From a virus, in the IMG/VR virus record IMGVR_UViG_3300023222_000800, positions 1 to 45,861 of that record: 45,861 nucleotides of DNA; one strand, written 5' to 3'. Below the pieces are notes generated by a model that did not search any database, was not told where the DNA came from, and was given only the letters and a program-made list of their open reading frames with translations. This document shows, one piece after another, positions 572 through 32,622 of the stretch. The translations under genes and the position numbers were made by a program. Position 1 is the stretch's first letter, and every line of letters begins with the position of its first letter.

Positions 572-1536
572 TGCACATCTTAGTAGTAGGTGCTGGTTCA
601 ATTGGTCAAAGGCATATCAAGAACTTGGTGGAGTTGGGTGTTGGGAGTGTTGCAGTGGTAGATACAGATGTAGACAGATTACTTAGTCTGTCTAAAATTG
701 GTGATGTTGCTGGATTCACTTGTATTGAAGATGCCCTAAGATTGCCAACTGATGCCGCCATAGTATCCGTACCAACCCATCTCCATATGGAAGTAGCTCT
801 CCAACTAGCCCAACACAACATGCCCCTATTCATAGAGAAACCTGTAGCCAATATCCTAGAAGATGCTTGGGCATTAAGAGACCTTCAAGACCACTTTAAA
901 CAGTGGACGGTTATTGGGTATAGTATGCGGTTCCATCCTGCAATCCAGATCGTTAAAGAACTACTACCTGAAATAGGAACACCTCTATATGCCCGTGCAG
1001 AGGTTGGGCAATACCTACCAGACTGGCATCCTGATGAGGACTATAGGAACTGGTACATGGCGCACGAAGACCAGGGTGGTGGTGCCTTGTTGGATTTGAG
1101 TCATGAGATTGATTATATGAGATGGCTGTTTGGTGGAATTGATGGACATAATGAAGGATATGTTGATAAAATATCTGAATTGGATATAGACTCAGATGAT
1201 ATAGCAGAGTTCAATATAGCCTTTTGTGCGGGACCATACGCTTCTATCCACATGGACTTACTAGACCGTTCCTACAATAGAAGGTTGAGGATTGTAGGAT
1301 CAGAAGGCACCATAGATTGGGGCAATAAGGGGAACTACGTCTCTCTTTTCAAACCCATTGAAGGATTCACCTACCACCAATATGACCAAGAACGCAATGT
1401 ACAGTTTATGGAGGAGATGAAAGCCTTTGTAGATAGTGTGGAGTGTGGTATTCCACATCCTGAGATGGCTACCCTTGAAGATGGGATAGAGGTGTTGAAG
1501 GTGGTTAAATTGTTGAAGGAGCAAAATGGCAGATAA
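571..1536 (+). CDS. Gfo/Idh/MocA family NAD(P)-dependent sugar oxidoreductase
   Basis: Residues 1-120 form a Rossmann fold with the GAGSIGQRH dinucleotide-binding loop near residue 7 and the family EKP motif (FIEKPVA) near residue 90. The C-terminal half matches the alpha/beta substrate domain, with GGGALLDLSHEIDYMRWLFG near residue 170 carrying the usual D..HEID pattern. The length of 321 is normal. Such enzymes oxidise or reduce sugars or nucleotide sugars, and relatives occur in sialic and legionaminic acid clusters. The next gene, a CMP-sugar synthetase, overlaps by 11 bases, supporting a role in the same pathway. The exact substrate cannot be told. Confidence 0.9.
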   Translation: MHILVVGAGSIGQRHIKNLVELGVGSVAVVDTDVDRLLSLSKIGDVAGFTCIEDALRLPTDAAIVSVPTHLHMEVALQLAQHNMPLFIEKPVANILEDAWALRDLQDHFKQWTVIGYSMRFHPAIQIVKELLPEIGTPLYARAEVGQYLPDWHPDEDYRNWYMAHEDQGGGALLDLSHEIDYMRWLFGGIDGHNEGYVDKISELDIDSDDIAEFNIAFCAGPYASIHMDLLDRSYNRRLRIVGSEGTIDWGNKGNYVSLFKPIEGFTYHQYDQERNVQFMEEMKAFVDSVECGIPHPEMATLEDGIEVLKVVKLLKEQNGR

Positions 1537-2260
1537 TATCCTAGCCATAATACCCGCTCGTGGTGGTTCCAAACGCCTACCTGGTAAGAACATCAAAGAA
1601 CTAAATGGTAGACCTCTGATAGCCTATTCTGTGTTGGTTGCACAGGAGACATTCTCCATTGGTGACATAGCAATTGGTACTGACTCATTAACTATTATGG
1701 AGCTATATGAAGCCACTAAGTCCAGATATTGTGTACCGTTACCAAGCGGTCTAACTACGGACAGTTCAACGCTTACAGAGACCATGCGATATGTGTGTGC
1801 GTATGGTAGCACAAAACCCGATTGGGTAGTCCTCCTCCAACCCACTTGCCCCCTACGCCAACCCTCCTTAATCGAACGCTGGATACAGGAAGTCCTACAC
1901 ACCCCCAATTGTGAAGGCGGTCTAACCGTAGACAAAGGCGGATTCAAACTAGGTTACTGTGATAGCTCAGGTTACTTCACACCAGACTATAAACCCATGA
2001 CATCTAAAGCGGATGCCAAGAAGAAGTGGGGTAGGGAAAATGGTGTGTTCTATATGTTTAAGGCCGAGAATGTATTAAAGGGTAAGCCATTTGGTAAATG
2101 TACTAGGATGATACCTCTTGAATGCCCTAGAGAGCAATCTTTGGCTAACATAGACACCCAACTGGATTGGAACCTCACTGAATTCCTATTCCAGCGGTAC
2201 GGATATGATCTGATGTTTAAACACTTGGAGTTTGATATACATGGGTTAAAGATCGGATGA
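1526..2260 (+). CDS. neuA: Acylneuraminate (nonulosonate) cytidylyltransferase, NeuA-like
   Basis: The N-terminus carries IPARGGSKRLPGKNI (about residues 9-23), the CTP-binding signature of CMP-sialic acid synthetases, followed by LNGRPLIAYSV. LLQPTCPLR near residue 103 is the second family block. The length of 244 fits a single-domain enzyme. It should join CTP and a nonulosonic acid to give the CMP-activated sugar. AAGGAG lies 4 bases before the ATG, which sits inside the end of the oxidoreductase gene. With the NeuB- and NeuC-like genes nearby it completes a recognisable pathway. Whether the sugar is Neu5Ac, legionaminic or another acid is not resolved. Confidence 0.92.
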   Translation: MADNILAIIPARGGSKRLPGKNIKELNGRPLIAYSVLVAQETFSIGDIAIGTDSLTIMELYEATKSRYCVPLPSGLTTDSSTLTETMRYVCAYGSTKPDWVVLLQPTCPLRQPSLIERWIQEVLHTPNCEGGLTVDKGGFKLGYCDSSGYFTPDYKPMTSKADAKKKWGRENGVFYMFKAENVLKGKPFGKCTRMIPLECPREQSLANIDTQLDWNLTEFLFQRYGYDLMFKHLEFDIHGLKIG

Positions 2261-2388
2261 AACAGTGGATACTCAGACTACTCCGAATTGACAGAATAAT
2301 CTGTCCTAGATGCAACAGCACCTTTATACTTCTGAAAGCTACCAAGAATATACGCAAGGGAGATTTATGGTTAAGCAAGTTAAACTAG
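2257..2388 (+). CDS. 43-residue CxxC microprotein (possible)
   Basis: This short frame starts with an ATGA overlap on the neuA stop and encodes a basic, hydrophobic N-terminus followed by ICPRCNSTF, a single CxxC knuckle. It overlaps the neuB start by 22 bases. It fills the otherwise unexplained 106-base gap between neuA and neuB and matches the habit of this genome of placing tiny Cys-pair proteins between enzymes. No clear ribosome site precedes it, so the call is tentative. Confidence 0.4.
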   Translation: MKQWILRLLRIDRIICPRCNSTFILLKATKNIRKGDLWLSKLN

Positions 2389-3386
2389 GCAATTTAACCC
2401 TTGGCAATGGTCTCAAACCAATCTTCATAGCGGAACTAGGCATAAACCACAATGGAGACTTCCAACAAGCTGTAGCTCTAACCAACGCTGCCATCAACTC
2501 AGGTGCCGATATAGTTAAATTCCAACACCACTTACCTGAATATGAAATGGTAGGTAATCATGAATGGCAAGGCTTGATGAAACAATGCGCCTTATCACTG
2601 CAAGATCTTAAATCTCTTCAGACATACATAAGGGGCTTGGGCAGAGAATTCCTCTGTACACCTTTCTGCACACAAGCTGCTGAGGAATTAGAATCAATAG
2701 GAGTATCAGGATTCAAAACAGGTAGTGGGGAATGTAACAACACACCATTCCAAGAGTTTGTAGCCCAATACAAGAAACCCACCTTAATATCAACCGGCAT
2801 GACCTCCCGTAACGAATTAATGAATACCATAGACAAGGTGCTCAAGATCAACAACAAGATAGTCCTACTCAACTGCACCTCTACATACCCAGCTACACCT
2901 AGAGAAGCCCGTCTACGGCGCATACAGTGGCTCAGGAGCACCTTTAATCTACCAGTTGGACAGTCGGATCACACACCTAACATATCAACTGCTTTGGGGG
3001 CAATTGCTCAAGGTGCTGTGTGTATAGAGAAGCACTTTACTTTAGACAGAGGATGGGATGGCCCGGATCAATCGGCTTCCATATTGCCTAGTGAGTTTAA
3101 GCAGATGGTAGAGATGGGCATGGAGATATGGGAAGGGATGGGAATGTGTATTGAAGCGGATATGGGTATATTAAGGGGTGAGCATAAGGTTAGAGAGATT
3201 GCTAATCATAGTGTAGTAGCTATGAAATCTATAAAGAAAGGACACTTCTTTGATCTAAAAAACATTGGTACTATGAGACCTGGGAATGGAGATATACCCG
3301 CCTCTAGATGTGGTGAACTATTGGGTAGATCGACAACACGAGATATTGACTCAGGTGAGTTGATTTGCTACGAGGATTTGAGATGA
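2367..3386 (+). CDS. neuB: N-acetylneuraminate synthase family protein, NeuB-like
   Basis: The body is a NeuB TIM barrel: FIAELGINHNGDF near the N-terminus, SGADIVKFQ, FLCTPF, KTGSGE, STGMTS, LNCTSTYPA and the QSDHT block. The last 60 residues (VAMKSIKKGHFF.. to the end) form the SAF/antifreeze-like domain that closes the partner active site. It condenses phosphoenolpyruvate with an N-acetylated hexose to give the nine-carbon acid. The longer frame from 2310 is less likely, since AAGGGAG sits just before the ATG at 2367 and family homology starts there. The stop overlaps the HNH start as ATGA. The specific sugar is not settled by sequence alone. Confidence 0.93.
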   Translation: MVKQVKLGNLTLGNGLKPIFIAELGINHNGDFQQAVALTNAAINSGADIVKFQHHLPEYEMVGNHEWQGLMKQCALSLQDLKSLQTYIRGLGREFLCTPFCTQAAEELESIGVSGFKTGSGECNNTPFQEFVAQYKKPTLISTGMTSRNELMNTIDKVLKINNKIVLLNCTSTYPATPREARLRRIQWLRSTFNLPVGQSDHTPNISTALGAIAQGAVCIEKHFTLDRGWDGPDQSASILPSEFKQMVEMGMEIWEGMGMCIEADMGILRGEHKVREIANHSVVAMKSIKKGHFFDLKNIGTMRPGNGDIPASRCGELLGRSTTRDIDSGELICYEDLR

Positions 3387-3823
3387 AGCAGGAAAGAACC
3401 AAAAAGTCTCTGGACGAAAAGATGCTTAAGTATATACCTATAAGAGATGATGGGGATTGTTGGGAGTGGACAGGGGCCAAAAGTGGTTTGGGATATGGGG
3501 CTATTACCCATAACGGCTCTATTATTTACGGGCATAGATTTATCTATGAGTTGATGATAGATAAAATTCCTAGAGGATATGACATAGACCATATCTGTAG
3601 AAACAGGGCTTGTTGTAATCCATTTCATCTTGAACCAGTAACACACAGAGAAAACGTTTTAAGAGGCAATGGACCAGCTGCTAAAAATGCGCGTAAGACA
3701 GTGTGTTATAGAGGGCACTCATTTGAGACTGTGATTAGGAATGGGAAGACAGTCAGATGGTGTCGGGAGTGTTACAATATATGGCATCGGGAATACCGAA
3801 AGAAGCAAGATATTGCACAATAA
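3383..3823 (+). CDS. HNH endonuclease, phage/homing type
   Basis: The central region reads as an HNH nuclease: YGHRFIYEL, then DIDHICRNRACCNPFHLEPVT and HRENVLRG, with the catalytic DH, the structural N and the final H. The C-terminal part adds CYRGHSF and WCRECYN, a likely zinc knuckle. The start at 3383 forms an ATGA overlap with neuB and has GAGG upstream. Free-standing HNH genes of this type commonly invade phage genomes next to unrelated genes. It is the last gene before a convergent terminator, so it does not break the pathway. Confidence 0.9.
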   Translation: MKQERTKKSLDEKMLKYIPIRDDGDCWEWTGAKSGLGYGAITHNGSIIYGHRFIYELMIDKIPRGYDIDHICRNRACCNPFHLEPVTHRENVLRGNGPAAKNARKTVCYRGHSFETVIRNGKTVRWCRECYNIWHREYRKKQDIAQ

Positions 3824-3893
3824 TGTTGATTTGGTGTACAATACATATTGCCTGAGATTTCAGGAGGTAGGTGGGGAGGGTTCTAGATTGAGA

Positions 3894-3915
3894 GGGTCTT
3901 AATTGGCCCTTTTTT
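3894..3915 (+). terminator. Rho-independent terminator after the HNH gene
   Basis: GGGTC, loop TTAATT and GGCCC are followed by six T (3910-3915). The stem is only five pairs with one G-T, so it is modest. It overlaps the stop of the convergent epimerase gene. The 75-base gap before it (3824-3898) holds only a short CCTGA/TCAGG inverted repeat. Confidence 0.5.
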
Positions 3916-4828
3916 CTTTTGCCATATCTTTAATACACTGCTCTAGACTAATGGTACACTCCCAGTCTAGGAGCAGTTTTATCTTTCCCAAGTCTGGTAC
4001 CCTATGTACCATCTCCGTATACCCTTCTGAATAATCCATCTTAACAATCTCAGCATAAGGATTAACATACTCCCTAACCCTCTCTGCCAATTCCCACATG
4101 CTAATGTGCTTATCATTACCTATGTTATAGATCTCCCCGCCTATCTGGTTACTAGGCAAATCGACAAACTGCACTAACGCACCTACTATATCCCTTACAT
4201 CCGCGAAACACCTAGTACTAGCACCATTCCCATAAACCGTTATCTTCTCACCCCTCAAAGCCTGTCCAACCATAATAGGCACCACATACTTCTCACTCTG
4301 CCCTGGACCTGTTACATTGAAGAACCGTATTACCGTCCCATTATTAGCCAAGGTCAAGTGTTCCCCTGCTAATTTAGAGATAGCGTAACTCCAACGTGGT
4401 TCCACTGATGGTCCAATTGCCAGCATACCATCTTCTCTAAAGGGCAGATCAGTGCTTTTACCATAAACATCCGAGGTTGAAGCAAATATGAGTTGGGCAT
4501 TATAGGACTTGCATAGGTTGGCAATGTGTAAAGTACCCAATACATTCTCACTTACTGTTTCTCCTGGTTTGTCCATTACGTCCTGCACCCCTAACTTAGC
4601 GGCCAAATGGTAGACTAGATGAGGTCTAAAGGTATCGAAGTCTAGGGCTAGGGATTTATAGTCTAGAATGTCTCTAGTTATATAAAGGATACCATCACTG
4701 CTGTAACGGCTTGAATAGAGGCAGTTTGCTTTATCTAGTGATGCTACTGTCATACCCTCTTCTTTTATAAGAGCTTGGGTTAGATGTGTGCCTATGAAGC
4801 CTGATCCGCCTGTTATTAAGATCCGCAT
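3899..4828 (-). CDS. NAD-dependent sugar epimerase/dehydratase (extended SDR)
   Basis: The N-terminus MRILITGGSGFIGTHL carries the TGGxGFIG cofactor loop. YHLAAKLGV and ASTSDVYG precede the catalytic YAISK (YxxxK) near residue 147, and RFFNVTGPGQ is the usual substrate-side block. At 309 residues it is a normal extended SDR acting on a nucleotide sugar. It is the last gene of the leftward operon behind a NeuC-like gene, so it may shape the precursor of the nonulosonic acid or an accompanying sugar. Whether it epimerises, dehydrates or oxidises is not determined. Confidence 0.9.
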   Translation of the reverse strand: MRILITGGSGFIGTHLTQALIKEEGMTVASLDKANCLYSSRYSSDGILYITRDILDYKSLALDFDTFRPHLVYHLAAKLGVQDVMDKPGETVSENVLGTLHIANLCKSYNAQLIFASTSDVYGKSTDLPFREDGMLAIGPSVEPRWSYAISKLAGEHLTLANNGTVIRFFNVTGPGQSEKYVVPIMVGQALRGEKITVYGNGASTRCFADVRDIVGALVQFVDLPSNQIGGEIYNIGNDKHISMWELAERVREYVNPYAEIVKMDYSEGYTEMVHRVPDLGKIKLLLDWECTISLEQCIKDMAKEKRAN

Positions 4829-5019
4829 AATTCAGTATTCCTCTGATATATATAGTCTATGTGGTCTTCTATAGTCAATCTAGCTCCAGTTCCTGGTTTT
4901 TGATCTACCGAAATAGCAAACCAGTATATACCGTGGTAACAGACAGCATACTGCCTGCTAGATGGATAGACTCCTACACCGAAGTATCGAAGCGTCCATC
5001 CTTTAGGAAGTTTACGCAT
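4816..5019 (-). CDS. Hypothetical 67-residue protein
   Basis: The protein is rich in aromatic residues (WTLRYFGVGVY, YHGIYWFAISVD) and ends with a small acidic part. I do not recognise it and see no motif. It starts as TAATG on the neuC-like stop and its end overlaps the epimerase start by 13 bases. That tight packing is the main evidence that it is translated. Confidence 0.5.
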   Translation of the reverse strand: MRKLPKGWTLRYFGVGVYPSSRQYAVCYHGIYWFAISVDQKPGTGARLTIEDHIDYIYQRNTELCGS

Positions 5020-6083
5020 TAGTAAAACCTCTTTTGTATATTAGGCATCTCAACCTCTGCCAATATCTTAGCTATATACTGTCCTGCTTTACCATCACCG
5101 TAGAGGTATTCAGGCTCATACCTTTGCCCCAACTGCCAATTTATACAGCGTCTGATGATGACTGGTCTATTGACTGAGTATCTAACGTTTCTACCCCTAG
5201 GCATTCGGTTAAGCTGCCTACTCCCCACATCTACCACAGGCGTACCAAAGTAACAAGCCTCTCTAATCCCGGCACTACTATTCCCCACCATAACTTCAGC
5301 ACGTGCCATCAGATTAACAAACTGGTCATGTGGCACTATGTGGGGAGCCTGTACATCTGCATCCTTAATAGCACTCCAAACCCCATGATTACCAGCATCG
5401 TGGTTAGGCCCTATCACCACCACCAAGCCATCCCATGCCGCTTTAACACCATCCAATACTGCCTCCATTTGGTTGTAGCTCTCTTCATATTCAGTAGTGA
5501 CAGGATGATATAGGACTAGTACATACGGCTCCTGTGTGGGCTTCTCAGACACATCTACACGCAACAGCAGATCAGTGGCAGGACATCCTACATTGAATAC
5601 ATAATCCTTATTCTCTCCCATGCCTACAATCCTCTGAGCGGCTTCATCAGTTGCAGGAAAGTGGATATGGCTTAACTTGGTAACTGCATGTCTTACACTT
5701 TCATCAATGGTACCAGTTACCTCTCCACCCTGAATATGAGCAACCCTAATATTCATCAAAGCGGCTGTTTGAGCAATTGCTAAGGTTTCATATCTATCTG
5801 TCAGAGCAACTACTACATCGGGTCTATTATACATAAAGCAACTAGACAAAGCGGTTAGGATATTAGCAGAGGAAGTAACCATAGATCGTGGCGTATCAGC
5901 ACCGTGATAAGTCGGGCATACATTATCTGGTTTACGATCAGTCCAACACTGCCACTCATAGGCAAACTTACTACAGGCTATAAACTGGCATTTAAGGTCT
6001 GGGTGCTGGTCTATGGCTTCAATTACAGTAGCGGCCCTAGTCCAGTTGGCACGAGAATCTACAGGTATAGCAATTGTCTTCAT
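5019..6083 (-). CDS. neuC: UDP-N-acetylglucosamine 2-epimerase (hydrolysing), NeuC-like
   Basis: The fold is GT-B-like, as in the WecB/NeuC family. HIQGGEVTGTIDESVRHAVTKLSHIHFPAT (described in pieces here: HIQGGE, then ESVRHA, then HFPAT) is the family core around residues 135-165. VGNSSAGIREACYFGTPVV near residue 265 is the UDP-binding block, and the GSRQ..R..GRNV tail follows. The 354-residue length fits. It should release N-acetylmannosamine or a related sugar and UDP, the first step toward the acid made by the NeuB-like enzyme. No strong ribosome site is visible before its ATG. It leads the leftward operon from the control region at 6084-6453. Confidence 0.9.
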   Translation of the reverse strand: MKTIAIPVDSRANWTRAATVIEAIDQHPDLKCQFIACSKFAYEWQCWTDRKPDNVCPTYHGADTPRSMVTSSANILTALSSCFMYNRPDVVVALTDRYETLAIAQTAALMNIRVAHIQGGEVTGTIDESVRHAVTKLSHIHFPATDEAAQRIVGMGENKDYVFNVGCPATDLLLRVDVSEKPTQEPYVLVLYHPVTTEYEESYNQMEAVLDGVKAAWDGLVVVIGPNHDAGNHGVWSAIKDADVQAPHIVPHDQFVNLMARAEVMVGNSSAGIREACYFGTPVVDVGSRQLNRMPRGRNVRYSVNRPVIIRRCINWQLGQRYEPEYLYGDGKAGQYIAKILAEVEMPNIQKRFY

Positions 6084-8296: not shown

Positions 8297-8497
8297 ATGT
8301 TTAATCCAATCCCACTCCACCAGGCCAAGATAGGTGATTACATCCTGATACCCGATGGATCAGTTTGGATACTGGATTGCGAAGAGTCGATTGCCAATAT
8401 ACCACAGGTTGCGTTCTTCTATCAGTCTATGGGAAATAGTGAGCCTATGGTGTTTGAGAGTTTAGAGGAAGCTAGATTTTGGATGTATAGGAATTAA
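8297..8497 (+). CDS. Hypothetical 66-residue protein
   Basis: It reads as a small beta-rich domain: AKIGDYILIPDGSVWILDCEE, then FFYQSMGNSEPMVFESLEEA. I recognise no family. GAGG overlaps the start region and the gene ends 3 bases before the helicase start, so it belongs to that operon. Confidence 0.55.
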   Translation: MFNPIPLHQAKIGDYILIPDGSVWILDCEESIANIPQVAFFYQSMGNSEPMVFESLEEARFWMYRN

Positions 8498-8500
8498 CCC

Positions 8501-10099
8501 ATGCCGCTACCAACCCCTAACATAATTCTCAATCATCCTAAGTTCGACCACTGGTATCCTGGTCAAGAAGAAGCCCTTGTATCAATCCTACAGTGGTTAA
8601 ACGGCCCCAAGAGATTCCTATGCGCCTCTATGCCTACTGGTAGTGGTAAGTCTTTGTTGGCTGTTCTATCCTCTGTGTTGGGGAGTAGAAGGGCTGCTGT
8701 ACTGACAGTTACCAAAGGACTACAGGGGCAACTTACACAGGACTTTGAACAGATCGGTATGGTGGATATTAGGGGGCAGAATTCATACCTGTGCAATCTG
8801 ATTCAGGATGGAGAGACTGCTGTAGATGATGGGCCGTGTCATGCTGGTATTGTGTGTTCTCTTAAGACTAGTGGTTGTTCCTACTATGATAAGCTCTCTA
8901 CTGCAAAGGCTTCCAATCTCCTAGTCACCAATTACTCCTACTATCTAGCCCAAACCATATATGGAAAAGATGGACTACAGGAGGGTCAGAATACCAATCC
9001 TCTACAGCTTCTAGTATGTGATGAAGCCCACCTAGCGTTCCAAGCTCTTGAATCCTTTATGGCGGTTTATTTGAGCAATGGTGAAGTAGAAGCACTAGGC
9101 ACCCACTTCCCTTACTCAGATGATTGGGAGACATGGCAAGACTGGGCAGCTAAGACAGCCATCAAAGCAGAAATAGAACACGAAAAGATAAAGAGAGAAA
9201 TCAAGAACCTATTGGAGACCGGAAGTAAGATAACTGGTGTCATGTTGCGGAAAAATAAACACTATGCTAATCTTGTGATAAGGCTTAAATCCTTGTCTGA
9301 CGCTAGTGGTAGATGGATATGGGACAAGAAGAAAGGTGGTGTGTCTTTTGCTCCTGTGTGGCCTGGTGAATCAAGCCGATTGCTGTTTCAAAATACCCCC
9401 AAGATCCTAGTCATGTCAGCAACTCTATCAGCCAAAACAGCAGACTCTCTAAACATACCCCAAGACCAGCGGGAATGGTTAGAAGTCCCATCTTACTTCC
9501 CTAAAGAAAACAGCCCAATTGTCCATGTTAAAACAGCCCGTATGAACCACCGTATAACACCAGCAGATTTGGACCTGTGGGTAACCCGAATAGACCAAAT
9601 TATCAATAAGCGCAAAGACAGAAAGGGCATAGTGTTCACAGTGTCTTATGACCGTCGTAACTACTTGATGTCTAAATCCAGCCATGTTAATATAATGCAA
9701 ACACATGGAAAGGATGATGTATATGCGGTTGTTGAGAAGTTTAAGCGGTCAAGTGCTCCTGCTGTATTGGTGAGTCCTACTGTTACAAGTGGTTGGGACT
9801 TTGCTGGGGATACGTGTCAATACGGCATAGTGGGCAAGATACCCTACCCAGATACCAGAGACCCAGTTGTAAAGGCCAGATGCGAAGATGACAGCGATTG
9901 GGGGGCATATCTAGCGATGCAGACGTTAGTACAGGAGTGCGGCAGGGGCACAAGGAGTGCGGTGGATAAGTGCGAGTATTTGATTTGTGACGATAATTGG
10001 AGTTGGTTTTGGGGGAAGTATAAGCACTTCAGTCCCAAGTGGTTTCAAGATCGGGTTAAGAGTGGGATGGTGGAGATAGTGCCGGAGCCGATGGTATGA
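8501..10099 (+). CDS. DinG/XPD-like superfamily 2 DNA helicase with iron-sulfur cysteines
   Basis: Walker A is MPTGSGKS (residues 44-51) and the DEAH box is residues 174-177. Between them four cysteines (98, 113, 119, 126) follow the spacing of the iron-sulfur cluster domain of XPD and DinG. VLVMSAT appears mid-protein and QECGRGTRS near residue 480 is motif VI. At 532 residues it is shorter than DinG but typical of phage versions. It should unwind DNA 5' to 3' during phage replication or repair. It is followed by an ATGA-overlapping small frame. Confidence 0.88.
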   Translation: MPLPTPNIILNHPKFDHWYPGQEEALVSILQWLNGPKRFLCASMPTGSGKSLLAVLSSVLGSRRAAVLTVTKGLQGQLTQDFEQIGMVDIRGQNSYLCNLIQDGETAVDDGPCHAGIVCSLKTSGCSYYDKLSTAKASNLLVTNYSYYLAQTIYGKDGLQEGQNTNPLQLLVCDEAHLAFQALESFMAVYLSNGEVEALGTHFPYSDDWETWQDWAAKTAIKAEIEHEKIKREIKNLLETGSKITGVMLRKNKHYANLVIRLKSLSDASGRWIWDKKKGGVSFAPVWPGESSRLLFQNTPKILVMSATLSAKTADSLNIPQDQREWLEVPSYFPKENSPIVHVKTARMNHRITPADLDLWVTRIDQIINKRKDRKGIVFTVSYDRRNYLMSKSSHVNIMQTHGKDDVYAVVEKFKRSSAPAVLVSPTVTSGWDFAGDTCQYGIVGKIPYPDTRDPVVKARCEDDSDWGAYLAMQTLVQECGRGTRSAVDKCEYLICDDNWSWFWGKYKHFSPKWFQDRVKSGMVEIVPEPMV

Positions 10100-10236
10100 T
10101 TAATAAGTCTGGTAAAATTTGGTTTTATAACGAATCTTTTTATTGGCTTCCATTATCTCTGTGGATAGAACTATTTGAATCAGAAGAGATAATACCGCTA
10201 GAAGATACTGAGTATTATAAATACATCCAAAACTAG
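10096..10236 (+). CDS. 46-residue hypothetical protein in frame with the next gene
   Basis: The sequence is aromatic and acidic (KIWFYNESFYWLPLSLWIELF..). It starts with an ATGA overlap on the helicase. Its TAG at 10234-10236 is in the same frame as the phosphoesterase that follows, with no other stop between. The two could be joined by readthrough, but a strong GGGAGG right after the TAG favours a new start instead. Confidence 0.5.
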   Translation: MINKSGKIWFYNESFYWLPLSLWIELFESEEIIPLEDTEYYKYIQN

Positions 10237-10248
10237 GGAGGTACCACC

Positions 10249-11136
10249 ATCGAAATACCAGATATAAAATCAACCCCAAATCTACGCCTGGACTGGAGAC
10301 CCTGTATCATAGTACCAGTCAGCGATAGTCAAGTAGGTAGTACTGCCTGTTCATCCAAACGATTTAGGAGATGGGTAGTTCGCTTGCTCGACATTGCGGA
10401 TGTAATGGGATACCAGATCCGCTTCATAGGACTTGGTGACTATACAGATAGCCTCAGACCTTCTATAAGGCGTAAGCTTCTGATTTCTGGTCTAGATGAG
10501 GATGAGCATTTCGTAACTGCAATCCACAAAGAAGTACAGAAGCATATTGATGAGTTCTGTAAGCTAGTAGAAGGTACAGAGGGATTGTGGATTGGTATGC
10601 TGGAGGGTCATCACTTCTTTGATTTTGGTGATGGTAGAACAAGCGATACAGTAATAGCAGATAGACTTGGTGCTACCTTCTTAGGCGATTGTACCAGAGT
10701 ACATCTAACTTTTGAGCGACCAATACCCAACGGAAAACCATCCTCGGCTGACTTTCAAATATGGGCACATCATGGAGAAGGAGGTGGAGCATTACCAGGC
10801 GCACCACTTAACAAACTCAATCCGATAAAGGGGGCCTTTGAAGCAGACGCATTCCTGATGGCACACCAGCATAAATCCGTAACAGCCAAGGTTCCTTATT
10901 GCTATGATAGGCGGGTTAAAGATGGGTATGTGATGGAGCACAAGGATATTAGCTTGACCTGTACTGGTGGATGGTTGCAGGGATATGGGCAGAATAGCAG
11001 AAGTGGCGGTAGGGCTGGTGGATATTATCCTGAACAGAAGATGTTGACGCCATTGAGTCTGGGGGGTACAAGGTTGGAGTTGTTTCCAATGAGAGAGAAT
11101 GGGAGGAACCTTATATTCCACGAGGTGGTGGTTTAA
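10249..11136 (+). CDS. Divergent calcineurin-like metallophosphoesterase, apparent AUC start
   Basis: Read from ATC at 10249 the protein is 295 residues. It shows the order of motifs of this superfamily: VPVSDSQVGS (DxH replaced by DxQ), GLGDYTD, LEGHH where GNH is usual, WAHHGEGGG and MAHQHK. Several metal ligands are therefore substituted, though the layout is kept. The first ATG, GTG or TTG in frame is the TTG at 10384, after the first motif, so a conventional start would delete part of the active site. GGGAGG lies 7 bases before the ATC. Family members include SbcD-like nucleases and phosphatases; a role in DNA end processing fits the neighbours but is not shown. Confidence 0.7.
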   Translation: MEIPDIKSTPNLRLDWRPCIIVPVSDSQVGSTACSSKRFRRWVVRLLDIADVMGYQIRFIGLGDYTDSLRPSIRRKLLISGLDEDEHFVTAIHKEVQKHIDEFCKLVEGTEGLWIGMLEGHHFFDFGDGRTSDTVIADRLGATFLGDCTRVHLTFERPIPNGKPSSADFQIWAHHGEGGGALPGAPLNKLNPIKGAFEADAFLMAHQHKSVTAKVPYCYDRRVKDGYVMEHKDISLTCTGGWLQGYGQNSRSGGRAGGYYPEQKMLTPLSLGGTRLELFPMRENGRNLIFHEVVV

Positions 11137-11175
11137 GGAGGTGAAATAGCCAATATCACAATTTAACCCAACATC

Positions 11176-11204
11176 TTGACACTAACAAATCCACAAGGTA
11201 ATCT
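11176..11204 (+). promoter_or_regulatory. Possible promoter before the SSB-like gene
   Basis: TTGACA (11176-11181) with a 17-base spacer and TAATCT (11199-11204), a weak -10. It lies in the 107-base gap before the gene at 11244. The gene itself has TGGAGG 7 bases before its ATG. Confidence 0.4.
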
Positions 11205-11243
11205 TAAATTCAAGGAACCAAAACAAATAACTGGAGGATATTA

Positions 11244-12041
11244 ATGGTAGATCAAACCCAACAAGTTGGAGCAAGTTTTAACCCAGAGGATTTTGGACAG
11301 GGTGGATTGTTTGATGCACTTTTGACCATTAAATCAGGGCTGTTTCAACACAATACGTTTACTCCAACAGAAGGGCCTAATGCCGGACAAGAGGTTAAGA
11401 ATCTAGAAGCCAAGATAACCTATACCAAAGAAGACGGGAATGATGCGGAGTGGACGTATAGTGTTGGACCTGCTGATAGTTGGAATCCTAGTAAAGACGG
11501 TCTAAGTGCTGTACCTATCAAAGATGGTGGTAAGATTTCACAGTCTAGTGCGTTTGGTACGTTTCTGTTTGAATTGCTAAATGCCGGATTCCCTGGCAAT
11601 CGGATGTCATCTGGTAGGTTGGATGCTTTGTTCGGTACTCAGTTTCAATCTCAGGGTGTTGTTAGGAAGGGTGCTGAGGCTGGAAGTAAACAGGTGTTGT
11701 CAGCTAAATTGGTAGTAGGGGTTCCTGGTGAGGTTGCTGGTGGAAATACTGCAAGTGTAGCAACTCCTCCTGTACCGCCTACACCGTCTGCTCCTGCTGT
11801 TTCTACCCCTCCACCCACTGCTAGTAATGGTGCTGTGGATGTTGGACAGTTGGCTATGACTTCAGCATTGAATCTCAAGAGGGATACCTTTACGCTTCAA
11901 GATGTCATGGCTCAGGTTATGCAGGATTTGGCTAGTGATCCTAGTAGGGACGCTGCTGCTGGTCATGTGTTTACTCCTGAGTTTACAGGGCTGTTGCAAG
12001 GTGCTGGATATACTGTTAGCCAGTACAATGTAAGTAAGTAA
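11244..12041 (+). CDS. Probable single-stranded DNA-binding protein of the recombination module
   Basis: Residues 1-150 look like a compact beta-rich domain (LEAKITYTKEDGNDAEWTYSVG, then FGTFLFELLNAGFPGNRM..LDALFGTQF). A Pro/Ala/Thr linker follows at about 172-192, and the last 60 residues are helical. Proteins with this layout stand next to Cas4-like and Sak4-like genes in other phages and are usually called hypothetical or SSB-like. The position directly before those two genes here agrees. No OB-fold signature can be proved by eye, so the assignment is mainly by context. It starts at an ATG with a good GGAGG. Confidence 0.55.
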   Translation: MVDQTQQVGASFNPEDFGQGGLFDALLTIKSGLFQHNTFTPTEGPNAGQEVKNLEAKITYTKEDGNDAEWTYSVGPADSWNPSKDGLSAVPIKDGGKISQSSAFGTFLFELLNAGFPGNRMSSGRLDALFGTQFQSQGVVRKGAEAGSKQVLSAKLVVGVPGEVAGGNTASVATPPVPPTPSAPAVSTPPPTASNGAVDVGQLAMTSALNLKRDTFTLQDVMAQVMQDLASDPSRDAAAGHVFTPEFTGLLQGAGYTVSQYNVSK

Positions 12042-13736: not shown

Positions 13737-13898
13737 ATGAATAAGCACGACGCATTGGTTTTTATTTCTGTGGTGGTATCTGTTGCATTAGTGGTAGTGA
13801 GTATAATAGGTGCTGTAGCTGCTGACTCAATAGCTAAGAGCGTCTATGATCAACATAATACTACCGATAGAACCATAATAGAGACTCGTGGAAAATGA
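13737..13898 (+). CDS. 53-residue single-span membrane protein
   Basis: A long hydrophobic segment (about residues 6-29, VFISVVVSVALVVVSIIGAV) is followed by a polar tail. GGAGG lies just before, the start is 2 bases after the preceding stop and the end overlaps the XPF-like start as ATGA. The frame fills the gap exactly. The function is unknown. Confidence 0.65.
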   Translation: MNKHDALVFISVVVSVALVVVSIIGAVAADSIAKSVYDQHNTTDRTIIETRGK

Positions 13899-14668
13899 CC
13901 CTCTCACCAATCTATGTCACCAACGAACCCAACGACAAAGATCTAGCCAAGCAACTAGGAAAGCTATGTGAACCCTACGAACTCAAGTGTGGTGATGTTA
14001 ATTTCCTAGCCAACTGGACAGATGATGAGCAGGTCTGGGTATGGGGGGAGCGTAAGAAGCTAGGGGATCTAGTAACATGTGCTACTGATTCAGGACGCCT
14101 ACTAAGACAAGTACAGGAAGCACATCAAGCAGGTTTCAAGTTCTTATTCCTCATCATTGAAGCCATCTATAGACGTGATCCAACTAGTGGCCTCCTTCAG
14201 ACTAGAAACGGTAAGGACTGGCAAGACTACCACATCAACCCAAAGGACAAGAAGAGTAAGACCATCCCTTACAGTCGCATAAGTGGTTACCTTAACCAAC
14301 TCAGGTATTATCTAGGTGTCCACATCTACCATACCGCTTCAGTTAGAGAAACAGCCTTGACCATAATGGACATCTATGGTATGTTTCAAACTCCACCAGA
14401 AGATCACAACAGCCTTAAACAGTTTGCTACTACACCTGAACCTGTAGCATCGTTTCTACAGAAGCCCAGTTTGATACGTAGGATGGTTAAGGAATTGCCA
14501 GGTATAGGGTGGGATAGGAGTAAGGATATAGAAGCTGAGTTAGGTAGTGCTAAGAGGTTGTGTGAGGTGTTGTCGGGAGGTGATAGGGAAGCGTTGTTGG
14601 GTATTGAAGGGATAGGTAAAAAGACAGTTGACAATATTCAGGTGGCGTTGGAAGAGGATGAGAGGTAA
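13895..14668 (+). CDS. ERCC4/XPF-like nuclease with C-terminal HhH
   Basis: GERKKLGDL at residues 51-59 is the ERKxxxD catalytic motif of the XPF/Mus81 nucleases, with upstream DVNF fitting the metal-binding acidic position. Residues from about 194 (LIRRMVKELPGIGWDRSK..) to the end hold tandem helix-hairpin-helix elements, ending in LLGIEGIGKKTVDNIQ. The enzyme would cut branched or flap DNA. Phage versions of 250 residues are known as resolvase-type nucleases. It lies between recombination and polymerase genes, so processing of recombination or replication intermediates is the likely job. Confidence 0.88.
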   Translation: MTLSPIYVTNEPNDKDLAKQLGKLCEPYELKCGDVNFLANWTDDEQVWVWGERKKLGDLVTCATDSGRLLRQVQEAHQAGFKFLFLIIEAIYRRDPTSGLLQTRNGKDWQDYHINPKDKKSKTIPYSRISGYLNQLRYYLGVHIYHTASVRETALTIMDIYGMFQTPPEDHNSLKQFATTPEPVASFLQKPSLIRRMVKELPGIGWDRSKDIEAELGSAKRLCEVLSGGDREALLGIEGIGKKTVDNIQVALEEDER

Positions 14669-14975: not shown

Positions 14976-16463
14976 ATGTCGTCAATCCCAGTAACACCCA
15001 TCTACAACGCCAATCGAGCATGTACAGCCTGTCCTCTTCATAAAGATTGTACAGCACCAGTACCGGCTATAGGCCCCCTGGATGCTCAAATCATGCTTGT
15101 TGGAGAGGCTCCTGGTGCAGGTGAAGACAAGACAGGCATACCATTCAAGGGTAGAGCAGGACAATACCTAGACTACCTACTTGGATCCATCAGACTACCC
15201 CGCGAACAGGTCTGGATATCCAACACGGTTAAATGCCGACCCTCCAACAACCGTGACCCTCTACCATCTGAAGTAGACACCTGTGCCAATCTGTGGCTAG
15301 ACCTTGAAATTAAAACAGTACAGCCTAAGATTATAGTAGCCTTGGGTCTGTTCGCTGCACGATATCTAACCAAAGACCCAAATCTAACAATGGAGAAGTC
15401 ACATGGCATACCTCGTATGGTTGATGGTAGGATTGTACTACCAGTCTATCATCCAGCAAGTGGTCTACACCAGACACGCAATATGCGTTTTATACAAGAG
15501 GACTTTGGTGTTCTTGAGAGGCTTATTAATGGGGTATCATTAGACCAACTGATACCAGAAGACCAACATCCCAATGTAGATTACAAGGAGGTAACAGATG
15601 TTAGAGAAGCGGTGGATTTGCTCTCCCAGCCAAAGTTCGCATTGGATACTGAGACTGTTCAGGCGGATGGGCAAGCCCAAATCTGGAGTGTGCAGGTGTC
15701 TGATAGAGCAGGTACAGGATACTTCATCCCATCATCCATCTGGGGACAAGGAGATAGCATATTATCTCTCGATGGGATATTCCAGATACCAGAAACGTCC
15801 CAAGTCCTAGTACATAACTACCTCTACGATGCTCAGTTCTTAACCATACCCAATCCAATTGACACGATGGTAGCGGCTTACCTCTTACAACTACCAATGG
15901 GGTTGAAGGAACTAGCATATCGGTTCTGTGGTATGATCATGTATTCCTATGAAGAGTATGTCCTACCCTACCGACGCAAGAAGGCCCTATCCTACCTCTA
16001 CCGGTTAGCTTCTTACATGGCTGATGTAACAGTACCTCAGAACCCCAAAGCTAAGAAGCCCAAGAAGTTCAAACGTGTAGTATGGGGATGGCCTGATCCT
16101 CCTGAGATAGTGGATATAGAGTGGGACAATAAAGTAGGACAGCTTGTACATAAGCAAAAGAACCCACATAATATCAATGGCAAGATATTGGACAGGATAA
16201 GGAAGAGCTTTACTGATTCAGACTTTGATCCTTATACTGCTTGGTATGATATTGACCAGAGAGAGAGGGCATTGGTAGAGAAGATATTTGGCCCTATGCC
16301 GGACGTAGATTTAAGGGACGCGCCTTATGACCAAGCAGTGTACTATTCAACTAGAGACCCTGATGCTACCATTAGGATAGGTGAGGTGTTGCTGTCGATG
16401 TTAGAAGAGGCTGGGCTGATGGACGTATTTAATATGGAGATGGGACATGTTGGACATGTATAG
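14976..16463 (+). CDS. Family 4-like uracil-DNA glycosylase fused to the 3'-5' exonuclease half of a family A polymerase
   Basis: Residues 1-185 form a family 4 type UDG: C16, C19, C87 and C103 fit its iron-sulfur ligands, GEAPGAGED (43-51) and PFKGRAG the first active-site block, VYHPAS (157-162) the second. Residues 215-475 are a DnaQ-like proofreading exonuclease: DTE (224-226), NYLYD (281-285) and YSTRD (457-461) are Exo I, II and III. The chain ends in DVFNMEM plus seven junk-like residues, exactly where a normal polymerase continues into the palm. The polymerase domain is the separate gene at 16998. UDG-polymerase fusion is known in some phages (for example SPO1). The two halves would have to work together. 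Confidence 0.88.
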   Translation: MSSIPVTPIYNANRACTACPLHKDCTAPVPAIGPLDAQIMLVGEAPGAGEDKTGIPFKGRAGQYLDYLLGSIRLPREQVWISNTVKCRPSNNRDPLPSEVDTCANLWLDLEIKTVQPKIIVALGLFAARYLTKDPNLTMEKSHGIPRMVDGRIVLPVYHPASGLHQTRNMRFIQEDFGVLERLINGVSLDQLIPEDQHPNVDYKEVTDVREAVDLLSQPKFALDTETVQADGQAQIWSVQVSDRAGTGYFIPSSIWGQGDSILSLDGIFQIPETSQVLVHNYLYDAQFLTIPNPIDTMVAAYLLQLPMGLKELAYRFCGMIMYSYEEYVLPYRRKKALSYLYRLASYMADVTVPQNPKAKKPKKFKRVVWGWPDPPEIVDIEWDNKVGQLVHKQKNPHNINGKILDRIRKSFTDSDFDPYTAWYDIDQRERALVEKIFGPMPDVDLRDAPYDQAVYYSTRDPDATIRIGEVLLSMLEEAGLMDVFNMEMGHVGHV

Positions 16464-17010
16464 AAGTTGGCCATCCAGAAAATATAGCATCATTTATGCT
16501 GACCCACCTTGGTCTTACAAAGATAAAAGGGATACTCACCCTAGACTGTGTGGTGGTGCATCTGTTCACTATAGTACGATGTCTCTAGATGATATAAAAC
16601 TGGTTCCAGTGTCCATTATATCTGAAGAGAATTGTATGCTATTCTTGTGGGCCACATTCCCCAATCTACAAGAAGCTCTCGATGTTATTATGGCATGGGG
16701 GTTTACATATAAAACACTTGGATTCAGTTGGGTCAAGACTAATAAAAAGAATGGACAGCCGTTTTTTGGTATAGGGTATTATACTAAATCCAACTGTGAA
16801 ATCTGTCTGATAGGAGTTAAGGGGAAACCAATCAAGGTTAGTAATAGTATTAGTAGTGTGTTAATTGAGCCACGTGAAGAACACAGTAAAAAACCGGCTA
16901 TAGTGAGAAATAAGATAGTAGAATTCTGTGGAGATTTACCTCGTATAGAACTCTTTGCTAGGGATCAGGTAGATGGGTGGGATTGTTGGGGTAATGAATG
17001 CTCCCCATAG
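16447..17010 (+). CDS. MT-A70-type adenine methyltransferase inserted in the polymerase gene
   Basis: YADPPWSY (residues 17-24) is the DPPW motif of N6-adenine methyltransferases of the MT-A70 family; LFLWATFPNLQEALDVIMAWGF and the C-terminal EHSKKPAIVRNKIVEFCGDLPRIELFAR (family block near residues 145-170) match as well. At 187 residues it is a compact phage type. It would methylate adenine in DNA, though RNA cannot be excluded. It has GGAG 7 bases before its ATG, overlaps the upstream half by 17 bases and the downstream half by 13. It fills the entire break between the two polymerase halves. Codon use looks more AT-rich and lacks the C-to-G gradient of its neighbours. Confidence 0.92.
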   Translation: MLDMYRSWPSRKYSIIYADPPWSYKDKRDTHPRLCGGASVHYSTMSLDDIKLVPVSIISEENCMLFLWATFPNLQEALDVIMAWGFTYKTLGFSWVKTNKKNGQPFFGIGYYTKSNCEICLIGVKGKPIKVSNSISSVLIEPREEHSKKPAIVRNKIVEFCGDLPRIELFARDQVDGWDCWGNECSP

Positions 17011-18224
17011 TCCTAGAGATGATGCAAACCGGCATGAGAGTAGATCTAGAAGCCCTAAACCAACTCTCAACCCAATGCCTAGACCTTATGCAGATAGAAG
17101 CCGCTAAGGTAGCTTCAATAGCTGGTTATGGTCTCAATCCCAATAGTGATGTCCAGGTAAGGGAGTTGGTCTATACCAAGCTAGGATTCAAACCTACCAA
17201 GCTAACCAAAGAGTCAAGGGTAGCCTCAACCAACGATAAAGAACTAAGTAAGATATCGCACCCTGTAATTAAGCACATTCTAGAATACCGCAAGATAGCC
17301 AAGATAAGAGATAGTTATGCTGAAAAACTTCCACGGTATACCGCCACTGATAGCAGTGGTAATTCTATTATCCATTGTAATATTAGGCTCACTGGTACAG
17401 ATACAGGTAGACTCAAGGTAACCGATCCACCCCTTCAGACCCTTCCAGTACGTACAGAACTAGGCAAACAAGTGAGAAATGCTTTTATTGCTAGACCAAA
17501 TTGTCAGTTGGTATTCGTGGATCTCAGCCAAATTGAGATGCGTGTATTGGCTCATGTATCTAATTGCCATAACCTTATTGAGTTGTTTAACACTGGTGGC
17601 GATATACATACTGATACTGCTTGTAGTGTCTTTGGTGTAAGTAGGGAAGATGCCAAATTAGATAAGTACCGCAAGCCTATCAAGAACGTCAACTTTGGAG
17701 TAGTATACGGTATATCTGCCCAAGGACTCTATAACTTAATGGTGGAGAATGAAGTAGAAGGATGGACGCTACAGGACTGTGAAAAGCTGATCCATGACTA
17801 TTTCACCTTATACCCTGAGATTAAAGACTACACGCATGAAACAGTAGCTTATGCTATCAGAAATGGTTGTGTAAGGGATATGTTTGGTAGGCGTAGGATC
17901 ATACCCGAACTGAAGTCGCCTTTTGAGTTTGTAAGGGCTGAGGGACATAGACAGGCTGGTAATGGGCCTATCCAGATGGGAGCACAGGGGATACTTAAAC
18001 TGGCTACTAATAGGATGTATCAGGAACGGTACCAAATACCCTTCAAGTTCTTGATGCAGGTGCATGATGAATTGGTTCTAGAGTGCCCTGTTGATGATGT
18101 GGTGTATGTGGCTAGGTTTGTCAAAGAGAGAATGGAGACTACTACTCAATTATCAGTACCAGTTCTAGCGGAATGTAAAGCTGGATATAGTTGGGGCAGT
18201 GCTACAGATATAGAAGGGTTGTGA
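16998..18224 (+). CDS. polA: DNA polymerase family A, polymerase domain only
   Basis: The 408 residues run from the region just before the palm to the end. Motif A is VFVDLSQIEMR (D175), motif B has R225, K229, F233 and YG at 237-238, motif C is QVHDE (D357). TGRLK and LQTLPVR blocks lie near 135 and 145. All catalytic residues of polymerization are present, while no exonuclease lies in this chain. The first residues LPIVLEMMQTGMRVD align with the point where the UDG-exonuclease gene stops. A Phe at the position equal to E. coli F762 is present. It should be the replicative polymerase, completed by the product at 14976. Confidence 0.93.
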   Translation: MLPIVLEMMQTGMRVDLEALNQLSTQCLDLMQIEAAKVASIAGYGLNPNSDVQVRELVYTKLGFKPTKLTKESRVASTNDKELSKISHPVIKHILEYRKIAKIRDSYAEKLPRYTATDSSGNSIIHCNIRLTGTDTGRLKVTDPPLQTLPVRTELGKQVRNAFIARPNCQLVFVDLSQIEMRVLAHVSNCHNLIELFNTGGDIHTDTACSVFGVSREDAKLDKYRKPIKNVNFGVVYGISAQGLYNLMVENEVEGWTLQDCEKLIHDYFTLYPEIKDYTHETVAYAIRNGCVRDMFGRRRIIPELKSPFEFVRAEGHRQAGNGPIQMGAQGILKLATNRMYQERYQIPFKFLMQVHDELVLECPVDDVVYVARFVKERMETTTQLSVPVLAECKAGYSWGSATDIEGL

Positions 18225-30047: not shown

Positions 30048-30980
30048 ATGCGAGTATTGGTAACTGGAGGGGCGGGGTACATCGGTTCAATCTTATGTGA
30101 ACATCTACTAGATGCCGGTCATCATGTAACGGTATTGGACAATCTCATGTATGGTAGTGGGAGTCTGTTTCATTTAGCACATAGAGAGGAATTTGAGTTT
30201 GTTAAAGGGGATGTTAGGGATCGGGGTGTACTTAATCCACTTGTTCAAACTGCTGAGATTATCATTCCACTAGCAGCTATAGTAGGAGCACCTGCTTGTG
30301 ACCAAGATCCTAGTGCAGCAAACTCTACTAACTATAAGGCAATACTGGAGATCCTGTTTGCTACTACTGCAACCAGGCAATTGATAATCTATCCCACAAC
30401 CAACAGCGGCTACGGTACACAGTCTGATAATATCCTCTGTACAGAGGATACACCGCTACGGTCTATATCTATCTACGGACTTACCAAGGAAGAGGCAGAA
30501 TGGAAAATCTTAGACCGTCCTAATACCATCTCTCTCCGTCTAGCTACCGTCTTTGGCTGCTCCCCTAGAATGCGCCTAGACCTACTAGTTAATGACTTCA
30601 CCTACAAAGCCTTTACAGACGGGTACATTGCCCTTTATGAACCTCATTTCAAACGTAACTATGTACATATTAGAGATGTAGCGGATTGCTTTATTCACTG
30701 TATTGACAATGCTGATAAGATGGTAGGTAGGGTTTACAATGTAGGTCTGGATTCAGCCAATCTCTCAAAGCTACAGTTGGCAGAACAGATAAGTCACCAT
30801 TTAGACGTAGAGGTATTTCAATCTGATTATGGCACCGATCTAGATAAACGCAACTATGTAGTGTCCAATCAGCGTTTAAGGGAAGCAGGGTTTGAGGCTA
30901 AGAGAGGGTTGGATGAGGGGATTGAGGAATTGATTAAAGGGTTTAAGATGATGGGCAGAGGAAGGTATAGCAATGTATGA
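30048..30980 (+). CDS. NAD-dependent nucleotide-sugar SDR
   Basis: VTGGAGYIGS at the N-terminus binds the cofactor; LAAIVGAPA and YPTTNSGYG lead to YGLTK, the catalytic YxxxK near residue 142. RLATVFG and the HVRDVAD-like YVHIRDVADC follow. The TDE signature of 4,6-dehydratases is absent (TTNSGYG instead), so an epimerase or dehydrogenase is more likely. It opens the heptose operon under a promoter with an operator-like palindrome and overlaps gmhA by 8 bases. Confidence 0.88.
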   Translation: MRVLVTGGAGYIGSILCEHLLDAGHHVTVLDNLMYGSGSLFHLAHREEFEFVKGDVRDRGVLNPLVQTAEIIIPLAAIVGAPACDQDPSAANSTNYKAILEILFATTATRQLIIYPTTNSGYGTQSDNILCTEDTPLRSISIYGLTKEEAEWKILDRPNTISLRLATVFGCSPRMRLDLLVNDFTYKAFTDGYIALYEPHFKRNYVHIRDVADCFIHCIDNADKMVGRVYNVGLDSANLSKLQLAEQISHHLDVEVFQSDYGTDLDKRNYVVSNQRLREAGFEAKRGLDEGIEELIKGFKMMGRGRYSNV

Positions 30981-31527
30981 ACAAAATACCCAAGCAAGAC
31001 AACACATTCAACAACACATTCAAGTCATGTGGGATGTCTATTTCCACTGTATCCAAGATATAATAGAAGCCGCCGACTTGATAACTACTGCCTTCAAGAA
31101 CGGTAACAAACTCCTCCTCTGTGGTAATGGTGGTAGTGCTGCTGACTGCCAACATCTAGCTGCTGAGTTTGTACCTATGGGGTTACCGGCTATAGCGTTG
31201 ACTACTGATACTAGTTTCTTGACAGCTTATAGTAATGACCATAGTTTTAACGATGTGTTCATGACGCAGATATTCGCTCTAGGGGAAGCTGGAGATGTAG
31301 TGATGGGTATTAGCACAAGTGGGCGTTCTCAGAATATTATAAAAGCACTAATTGGTAACTCTGGGAGGTTGCACACCATAGCTCTTACTGGCATGGGTGG
31401 AATAGCTTCTGTTACATTTCAGCCCACTGTATCTATCAAAGTCCCATCTACCAATACCCAACACATCCAAGAGGCCCATATAACGATAGAGCATCTAATC
31501 TGGCAACTGGTAAAGGAAGCATTATGA
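30973..31527 (+). CDS. gmhA: Sedoheptulose-7-phosphate isomerase, GmhA-like
   Basis: A SIS domain with LLCGNGGSAADCQHLAAEF (about 48-66), the phosphoheptose isomerase signature, and GISTSGRSQNI (about 113-123) for phosphate binding; the QEAHITIEH end contributes the catalytic His/Glu. At 184 residues it has the family length. It converts sedoheptulose 7-phosphate into D-glycero-manno-heptose 7-phosphate. The two-gene transketolase downstream can make that substrate and the kinase next to it uses the product. Confidence 0.9.
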   Translation: MYEQNTQARQHIQQHIQVMWDVYFHCIQDIIEAADLITTAFKNGNKLLLCGNGGSAADCQHLAAEFVPMGLPAIALTTDTSFLTAYSNDHSFNDVFMTQIFALGEAGDVVMGISTSGRSQNIIKALIGNSGRLHTIALTGMGGIASVTFQPTVSIKVPSTNTQHIQEAHITIEHLIWQLVKEAL

Positions 31528-31694
31528 GTTTAGATGTTTGGTTTATCTATATGTGGACATGTGATGGGTGTGGAAAGAAGGAAGAAGAAACTAGTGACCT
31601 ATCTGTTACTGATCCACCTGTTGGTTGGTCTTGGGATTTTTGTAGCGAATGTAGATTAGATCAACCACTTGAGGTAGATGTTGATAATAACTAG
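31524..31694 (+). CDS. 56-residue zinc-ribbon protein between gmhA and hddA
   Basis: CDGCGKKEE and FCSEC form two Cys pairs about 25 residues apart. The gene starts as ATGA on the gmhA stop and overlaps the kinase start by 17 bases, filling the space between two pathway enzymes exactly. Function unknown. Confidence 0.6.
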   Translation: MSLDVWFIYMWTCDGCGKKEEETSDLSVTDPPVGWSWDFCSECRLDQPLEVDVDNN

Positions 31695-32622
31695 AACACC
31701 CCTCCGTATATCCTTTTTAGGTGGTGGTTCAGACTATCCCCAATGGTACAACGAACACATGGGCATGGTTCTAGGTGCCACCATAAACAAGTACTGCTAC
31801 ATAACCTACCAACCCAACCAATCTAACTTCCGTATACTTTATTCCAAACTAGAGGAACACAGGATAGTAGAAGAGATACAACATCCAGCAGTTAAAGCCT
31901 GTTTAGAATATATGAACATGACCACACCCGCTGGTATATTCCATGCTTCAGACTTACCTTCTAGAAGCGGCTTGGGATCTAGTTCTGCTTTTGTAGTGGG
32001 GTTGTTAAATGCTCTATATGCTTCCAAGGGACAGGTGCCGCATAAACTGGAAGTAGCTGATGATGCTACTAAGATAGAGCAGGACATCCTTAATGAACCA
32101 GTAGGATCACAAGATCAGATACTATGTGCTATGGGTGGTATGAAACAGATAGTATGGCACCCATCAGGTGAGGTTGCTATAAGGAGTATATCGGCTCTAC
32201 GTCTCTGTGAACTACATCACCATCTAATGCTCTTCTATACTGGACCTAGAGCGGAAACTACACCAACCCCTTTAACATTTAACATTGACATTACCAGAAG
32301 ACTCGCTACAATGGCTAAGGAAGGAGCAGATATTCTAACTGGCGATGGAGATATAAGTGCCTTTGGTGAATTGCTAGATGAGGGTTGGCAGCTTAAGAAA
32401 CAGATGTCGCCTAGTATCAGCACTGATATGATAGATGTACACTACGCATGGGCTAAGGGGTATGGAGCTATTGGTGGTAAGATACTAGGATCTGGTGGTG
32501 GTGGTTTTATGTTACTCTTTGCTAAACCTGAAGACCACCAAAGCATCATAAACCATGTACAGATGCAGCATGTACCCTTTGAGTTTGAGTTTCAAGGTAG
32601 TAAGGTGATTTATAATGGTTAA
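31678..32622 (+). CDS. hddA: D-glycero-D-manno-heptose 7-phosphate kinase, HddA-like GHMP kinase
   Basis: RTPLRISFLGGGSDYP opens the sugar site, PSRSGLGSSSAFVV (about residues 98-111) is the GHMP ATP loop and KILGSGGGGFMLLF near residue 267 closes the fold. This set matches heptose kinases of the capsule pathway. It should phosphorylate C1 to give heptose 1,7-bisphosphate. The start could be ATG 31678 or TTG 31681; GAGG sits close before both. The phosphatase and guanylyltransferase that normally follow in the pathway were not seen. Confidence 0.9.
   Translation: MLIITRTPLRISFLGGGSDYPQWYNEHMGMVLGATINKYCYITYQPNQSNFRILYSKLEEHRIVEEIQHPAVKACLEYMNMTTPAGIFHASDLPSRSGLGSSSAFVVGLLNALYASKGQVPHKLEVADDATKIEQDILNEPVGSQDQILCAMGGMKQIVWHPSGEVAIRSISALRLCELHHHLMLFYTGPRAETTPTPLTFNIDITRRLATMAKEGADILTGDGDISAFGELLDEGWQLKKQMSPSISTDMIDVHYAWAKGYGAIGGKILGSGGGGFMLLFAKPEDHQSIINHVQMQHVPFEFEFQGSKVIYNG

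Follow-up and report, generated by a model that had tools for sequence, protein, structure and literature searches.

Our analysis showed that a family A DNA polymerase is encoded by two adjacent genes in IMG/VR virus record IMGVR_UViG_3300023222_000800 (45,861 nt; this whole stretch is called the window below). One carries the UDG and 3′-5′ exonuclease domains (exo half), the other the polymerase domain (pol half), and a complete MT-A70 methyltransferase gene fills the gap and overlaps both (Table 1). The same codon boundary is broken in four IMG/VR phages, namely the window, L001, L063 and L068, and the contents of their gaps are unrelated. The initial annotation had reported the split between the exonuclease and polymerase domains, the methyltransferase gene overlapping both halves, and the coordinates and open reading frames of the three genes, all of which were confirmed. 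We consider it probable that the polymerase was split once between domains long ago, that its halves reassociate through the exo-pol contact, and that the gap is a slot for translated cargo.

Table 1. Features of the split polymerase locus (window positions).
Feature	Position	Strand	Basis
N-terminal half gene, family-4-like UDG + 3′-5′ exonuclease, 495 aa	14976..16463	+	Pfam, PHROG_17, L001 match
UDG domain	15069..15485	+	PF03167
3′-5′ exonuclease domain, core match	15618..15950	+	PF01612, residues 215-325
ATGGAGATGGGA, last shared codons (Met-Glu-Met-Gly) of exo half; holds SD-like GGAG	16434..16445	+	
Insert, 552 bp, between Gly codon and pol-half Met codon	16446..16997	+	vs unbroken L067, L078
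MT-A70 family DNA adenine methyltransferase, 187 aa	16447..17010	+	PF05063, PHROG_359, PADLOC
TAA TGA ATG, two pol-frame stops directly 5′ of pol start	16992..17000	+	
C-terminal half gene, complete family A polymerase domain, 408 aa	16998..18224	+	PF00476, AlphaFold2, Foldseek

The two halves and the join

The two halves matched one phage polymerase profile, PHROG_17, as consecutive parts (positions 478-841 for the exo half and 846-1237 for the pol half), and they are also consecutive in Klenow and Taq alignments. The site is unbroken in 11 related loci, which represent 8 distinct polymerases, and in 5 reference phages. This indicates that the adjacent genes are consecutive parts of an ancestral polymerase. 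In family A the arrangement of proofreading and polymerase domains in one chain is canonical, yet not universal; here they lie in separate ORFs with stops between them.

Pfam searches found UDG (PF03167, 9e-29) and DNA_pol_A_exo1 (PF01612, 1.5e-9) in the exo half. Cys16, 19, 87 and 103 of the UDG domain are nearly invariant, and the DEDDy set of the exonuclease is complete (D224, E226, D285 and Y457-x3-D461), with motif III (Y457-D461) at 16344-16358, beyond the PF01612 core match. Two genes upstream of the polymerase is an ERCC4-type nuclease gene (13895-14668), which is kept in L001, L063 and L068 and had no match in a PHROG search. The pol half matched DNA_pol_A (PF00476, 3e-99) over profile positions 2-380 of 381, and the presence of motif A (Asp, 17520-17522), motif B (17670-17708) and motif C (His-Asp-Glu, 18063-18071) places it in family A (Pol I-type). 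Its catalytic residues D175/E180, R225/K229/F233/Y237 and H356-D357-E358 are kept, so that both halves retain all catalytic residues, as had been claimed. The window and L001 are 80% identical in the exo half (dN 0.15, dS 1.26) and 79% identical in the pol half (dN 0.18, dS 1.58), which indicates purifying selection on both.

AlphaFold2 gave a confident, complete fold for the pol half alone (pLDDT 90.2, pTM 0.82), and Foldseek aligned this model along its full length to KlenTaq 3po4 (TMq 0.89, 401 columns). The pol half is thus by fold a complete palm-fingers-thumb module, and the Klenow polymerase domain retains activity when its exonuclease domain is removed. Both points would suit a reading without reassembly, where the pol half acts as a lone non-proofreading polymerase and the UDG-exo half as a separate protein for repair or proofreading in trans. 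Against this, both active sites are retained in all split members, and the genes are adjacent and in the same order in all four. We regard separate action as unlikely, and prefer reassembly of the halves.

The initial annotation had placed the join between MEM and LPIV. The continuity from one residue to the next was borne out, but the exact point lies between MEMG and MLPIV, the Gly being kept in the exo half, whose shared sequence stops at Gly490 (16443-16445). The window reads NMEMG / MLPIVLEMM, and the corresponding region is KMEMS-MLPVCLEMM in unbroken L067, MMDMG-TLPIALEME in unbroken L078 and, by profile alignment, NIEMP-LVPVLSRIE in E. coli Pol I. The residue after the break is Met in L067, and the same position is the start codon of the pol half in the window. 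Judged from these alignments, no polymerase residue is lost at the break. The AlphaFold2 model of unbroken L078, too poor to show the interface (pLDDT 64, pTM 0.49), hints that the join lies inside a helix (483-502).

The last codons before the insert, ATGGAGATGGGN, are identical in 4 of 4 split phages, whereas unbroken L067 has ATGGAAATGTCT in their place. The GGAG within ATGGAGATGGGA forms a Shine-Dalgarno-like site for the following gene. The methyltransferase gene begins within the last 17 nt of the exo half, and its final 13 nt, with the stop, are shared with the start of the pol half (16998-17010). Since TAA TGA abut ATG 16998 in the pol frame, translation cannot run in frame into the pol half from upstream. 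A possible RNA hairpin with GGAG in its loop was seen at the methyltransferase start (16420-16470), a weak one (z -1.67); a sequestering hairpin at this start, as for Aeh1 mobE, was rejected because z was only at this level.

The gap and its occupants

The methyltransferase in the window matched PF05063 over its full length (3e-29, profile 1-172 of 172), PHROG_359 (4e-80) and the PADLOC type II MTase (8e-66), and carries a DPPW motif at 16501-16512, as in the MT-A70 family. Its nearest relatives, in L002 and L003 (67%), adjoin a C5 methyltransferase-like gene and not a polymerase. PADLOC classed the window and L068 methyltransferases with type II or orphan methyltransferases. The window MT-A70 is an orphan adenine methyltransferase that, from its family, probably modifies phage DNA against host restriction during copying.

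The gaps of the window, L001, L063 and L068 are 552, 82, 685 and 651 bp long, respectively. The closest relative, L001 (78% identical to the window over exo+pol), has in its 82 nt a single 29-codon hydrophobic ORF and no methyltransferase. In L063, whose halves are 60% and 68% identical to those of the window, the 685 nt hold a 63-codon and a 77-codon cysteine-containing ORF and one more ORF; there is also a hydrophobic ORF of 30 codons, and its TGA overlaps a TTG pol start. In L068 (62% and 68% identical), the 651 nt hold a Dam-type methyltransferase (PF05869, 8.7e-28) and a 67-codon ORF overlapping the pol start. Each cassette has an SD-like GGAG before it and overlaps the pol start at its far end.

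A third methyltransferase family, an N6_N4 type (PF01555, 5e-28), was found at the same polymerase locus in L001 (3697-4467), beside the MT-A70 and Dam types; the last bases of this gene are also the first of the UDG-exo half. Among 14 related records, each of the three families turned up in a single one, and every time the gene lay within or overlapped the split polymerase genes; most of these records are fragments, so that absence from the others is weak evidence. In Mel-JY34 and ctMlz233, whose polymerases are unbroken, a methyltransferase gene also lies a few genes upstream of the polymerase.

The MT-A70 gene had also been taken to be what split the polymerase. This would require its insertion into an intact gene in the lineage of the window, and the insert boundaries do coincide with those of the methyltransferase gene within 13 nt. 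Its G+C content (39%, against 46% and 43% in the exo and pol halves) suggests a recent arrival; the L068 methyltransferase is likewise low (45%, flanks 52 and 53%), and being AT-richer than the flanks in both phages fits later arrival of these genes. But L001, which is the nearest relative, L063 and L068 are split at the same boundary with other contents and without MT-A70, and the insertion reading could hold only if four separate insertions had hit a single codon boundary, or if the other phages had lost MT-A70. The claim was therefore not upheld, and we give this origin very little credence. More probably, the gap was already there and the methyltransferase of the window came to fill it later, rather than having caused the break.

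Phage polymerases often carry introns or inteins: SPO1 gp31 has an intron, and unbroken L067 has a 277-aa HNH intein within motif A of its polymerase (VDL / SQIEMR; 8337-11378, minus strand). One polymerase might thus be restored from the two genes by RNA splicing of an intron with a methyltransferase, by protein splicing or by ribosomal bypassing. However, the L001 gap of 82 nt is too short for a self-splicing intron, not every gap length is divisible by three, the contents are unrelated, and each half has a stop and a start of its own. No group I or II intron was found by Rfam search at gathering and permissive thresholds (E up to 5), and the window insert had no Hint match, its methyltransferase lying in a different frame. 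Restoration of one chain is, in our estimate, extremely improbable. By Pfam, the inserts were MT-A70, Dam or of no family, and no homing endonuclease (mobE/seg) or other mobility function was recognised in the four gaps, in a scan of all their ORFs but the 29-codon one of L001 and the last one of L063.

A frameshift or chimera as the cause is strongly disfavoured, the same split being present in three independently assembled contigs from separate metagenomes. The window also has a free-standing HNH_3 endonuclease gene of homing type (3365-3823), which adjoins a NeuB-like gene. It was rejected as the agent of the split, being 11 kb away and showing only 24% identity over 72 aa to the intein nuclease of L067, and nothing was found to link it to the locus. 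Elsewhere in the window, transketolase is encoded as two adjacent genes for its N-terminal and C-terminal parts (33127-33963 and 34067-34933). There are also two sugar-nucleotide gene blocks (571-6083 and 30048-36842), which encode NeuB, cytidylyltransferase, UDP-GlcNAc 2-epimerase, epimerases, SIS isomerase and GHMP kinase.

Origin of the split and a proposed mechanism

The relatives proposed for checking yielded both forms, 8 distinct unbroken polymerases and 3 further split phages. All four split phages are known from uncultivated contigs, and three of these contigs are short, at 11-13 kb. The collections were scanned with exact motif patterns, by which members can be missed; hand-made patterns recovered L063 and L067-L078, and alignment-driven scans with few patterns recovered little. 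A DNA-level search of phages gave no match, and a search of genome contigs gave only a bacterial UDG.

In a tree of 733 exo+pol columns, the four split phages and unbroken L067 formed one group (100/100). No UDG domain was detectable in the 55.7-kb record of L067. Free trees nested L067 within the split group, with L068 for pol (89/89). This placement would be expected if one hot spot had been struck independently several times, L067 being either a genuine unbroken member of the group or re-fused. An exact 14-nt direct repeat, GGAGATGGGACGAT, at 6854 and 7045 (minus strand) of L063 points the same way: it flanks the first small ORF of the gap and starts both the slot and its second ORF, a sign that cassettes may come in through short homology at the ribosome-binding region. 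On the other side, constraining the four split phages as a clade cost 2.9 lnL units and was not rejected (AU p=0.277), ATGGAGATGGGN is common to the split members, and L067 is the longest branch of the group. Repeated use of a hot spot, or re-fusion in L067, is possible, and we hold several independent strikes to be a minority reading with perhaps some chance of being right. A single split with subsequent turnover of the gap content is the simplest account of these sequences, a single origin being not proven.

Under the single old split that we prefer, an ancestral single-chain UDG-exonuclease-polymerase would have been broken, probably once, in the helix connecting exo and pol, precisely after the Gly codon and before the next residue, which is Met in L067. 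The exo half would then stop just past the break, and the pol half would use that next position as its start codon. Most likely the two products come together again through the usual exo-pol contact and form a functional replicative polymerase; such reassembly is plausible because other phages have split gp43 and NrdA proteins that are active once their halves meet (PMC2988022). The anatomy of the gap suggests a permissive slot: an incoming gene would gain the SD-like GGAG of ATGGAGATGGGN and would pass translation on to pol by the stop/start overlap, so that coupling would run through the cassette. The slot content would have turned over, and here it is an orphan MT-A70 adenine methyltransferase that, from its family, probably protects phage DNA from host restriction.

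A further reading, which we think rather improbable, is that the split has been kept because it is useful, the gap in the replicase operon being a translationally coupled dock for exchangeable methyltransferases. The methyltransferase may then join the polymerase halves and modify DNA as it is made.

The usual explanation for a split polymerase is that a mobile element interrupted its gene. A break kept in four phages while its content changes, twice to unrelated methyltransferases, makes the cause of the split separable from its present occupant. The unbroken, 82-bp-gap and methyltransferase-filled forms offer a natural set for testing how a replicase withstands a break that separates its proofreading and synthesis domains. 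The same set bears on whether replication operons act as docking sites for anti-restriction genes.

Comparison with known split genes

The order UDG-exonuclease-polymerase is shared with ctfzr933 (MW202455), Mel-JY34, ctMlz233 and SPO1 gp31. Unlike the polymerase here, those of MW202455, Mel-JY34 and ctMlz233 are single chains at the join; SPO1 has its intron elsewhere.

Gene 43 (43A/43B) of the Aeromonas T4-like phages 25 and 44RR likewise encodes the replicative polymerase in two genes, and the intervening DNA varies as in the gaps here, with a seg-type endonuclease in 25 and an untranslated spacer in 44RR (PMC2988022). In phage 25 the gp43A and gp43B halves purify together and have polymerase activity, and fragmented NrdA is active as well (PMC2988022). 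These gene 43 products are of family B and their gap has no methyltransferase (PMC2988022), whereas the break here is between UDG-exo and a family A pol. In the OM43 phages MEP401 and MEP402, a family A polymerase is likewise encoded by two ORFs with a small ORF between them, conserved in the group (PMC10580990). They differ in that the break lies within the DNA_pol_A domain, a UDG was not reported and the ORF is of unknown function; an intron was suspected by the authors (PMC10580990).

The initial annotation had compared the locus with nrdA of Aeh1, which is split by mobE. The likeness holds for the outcome, a free-standing gene inside a fragmented gene with a still functional product, but not for the intruder, which in Aeh1 is a homing endonuclease (PMC2988022), none being recognised in the four gaps here.

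Split phage polymerases are thus already known in family B (25 and 44RR; PMC2988022) and in family A (OM43; PMC10580990). Our literature searches found no methyltransferase inside a polymerase gene. As far as the literature searched shows, what is new is a break exactly between UDG-exonuclease and polymerase genes, and a fixed site with changing content that has unrelated DNA methyltransferase families among its occupants.
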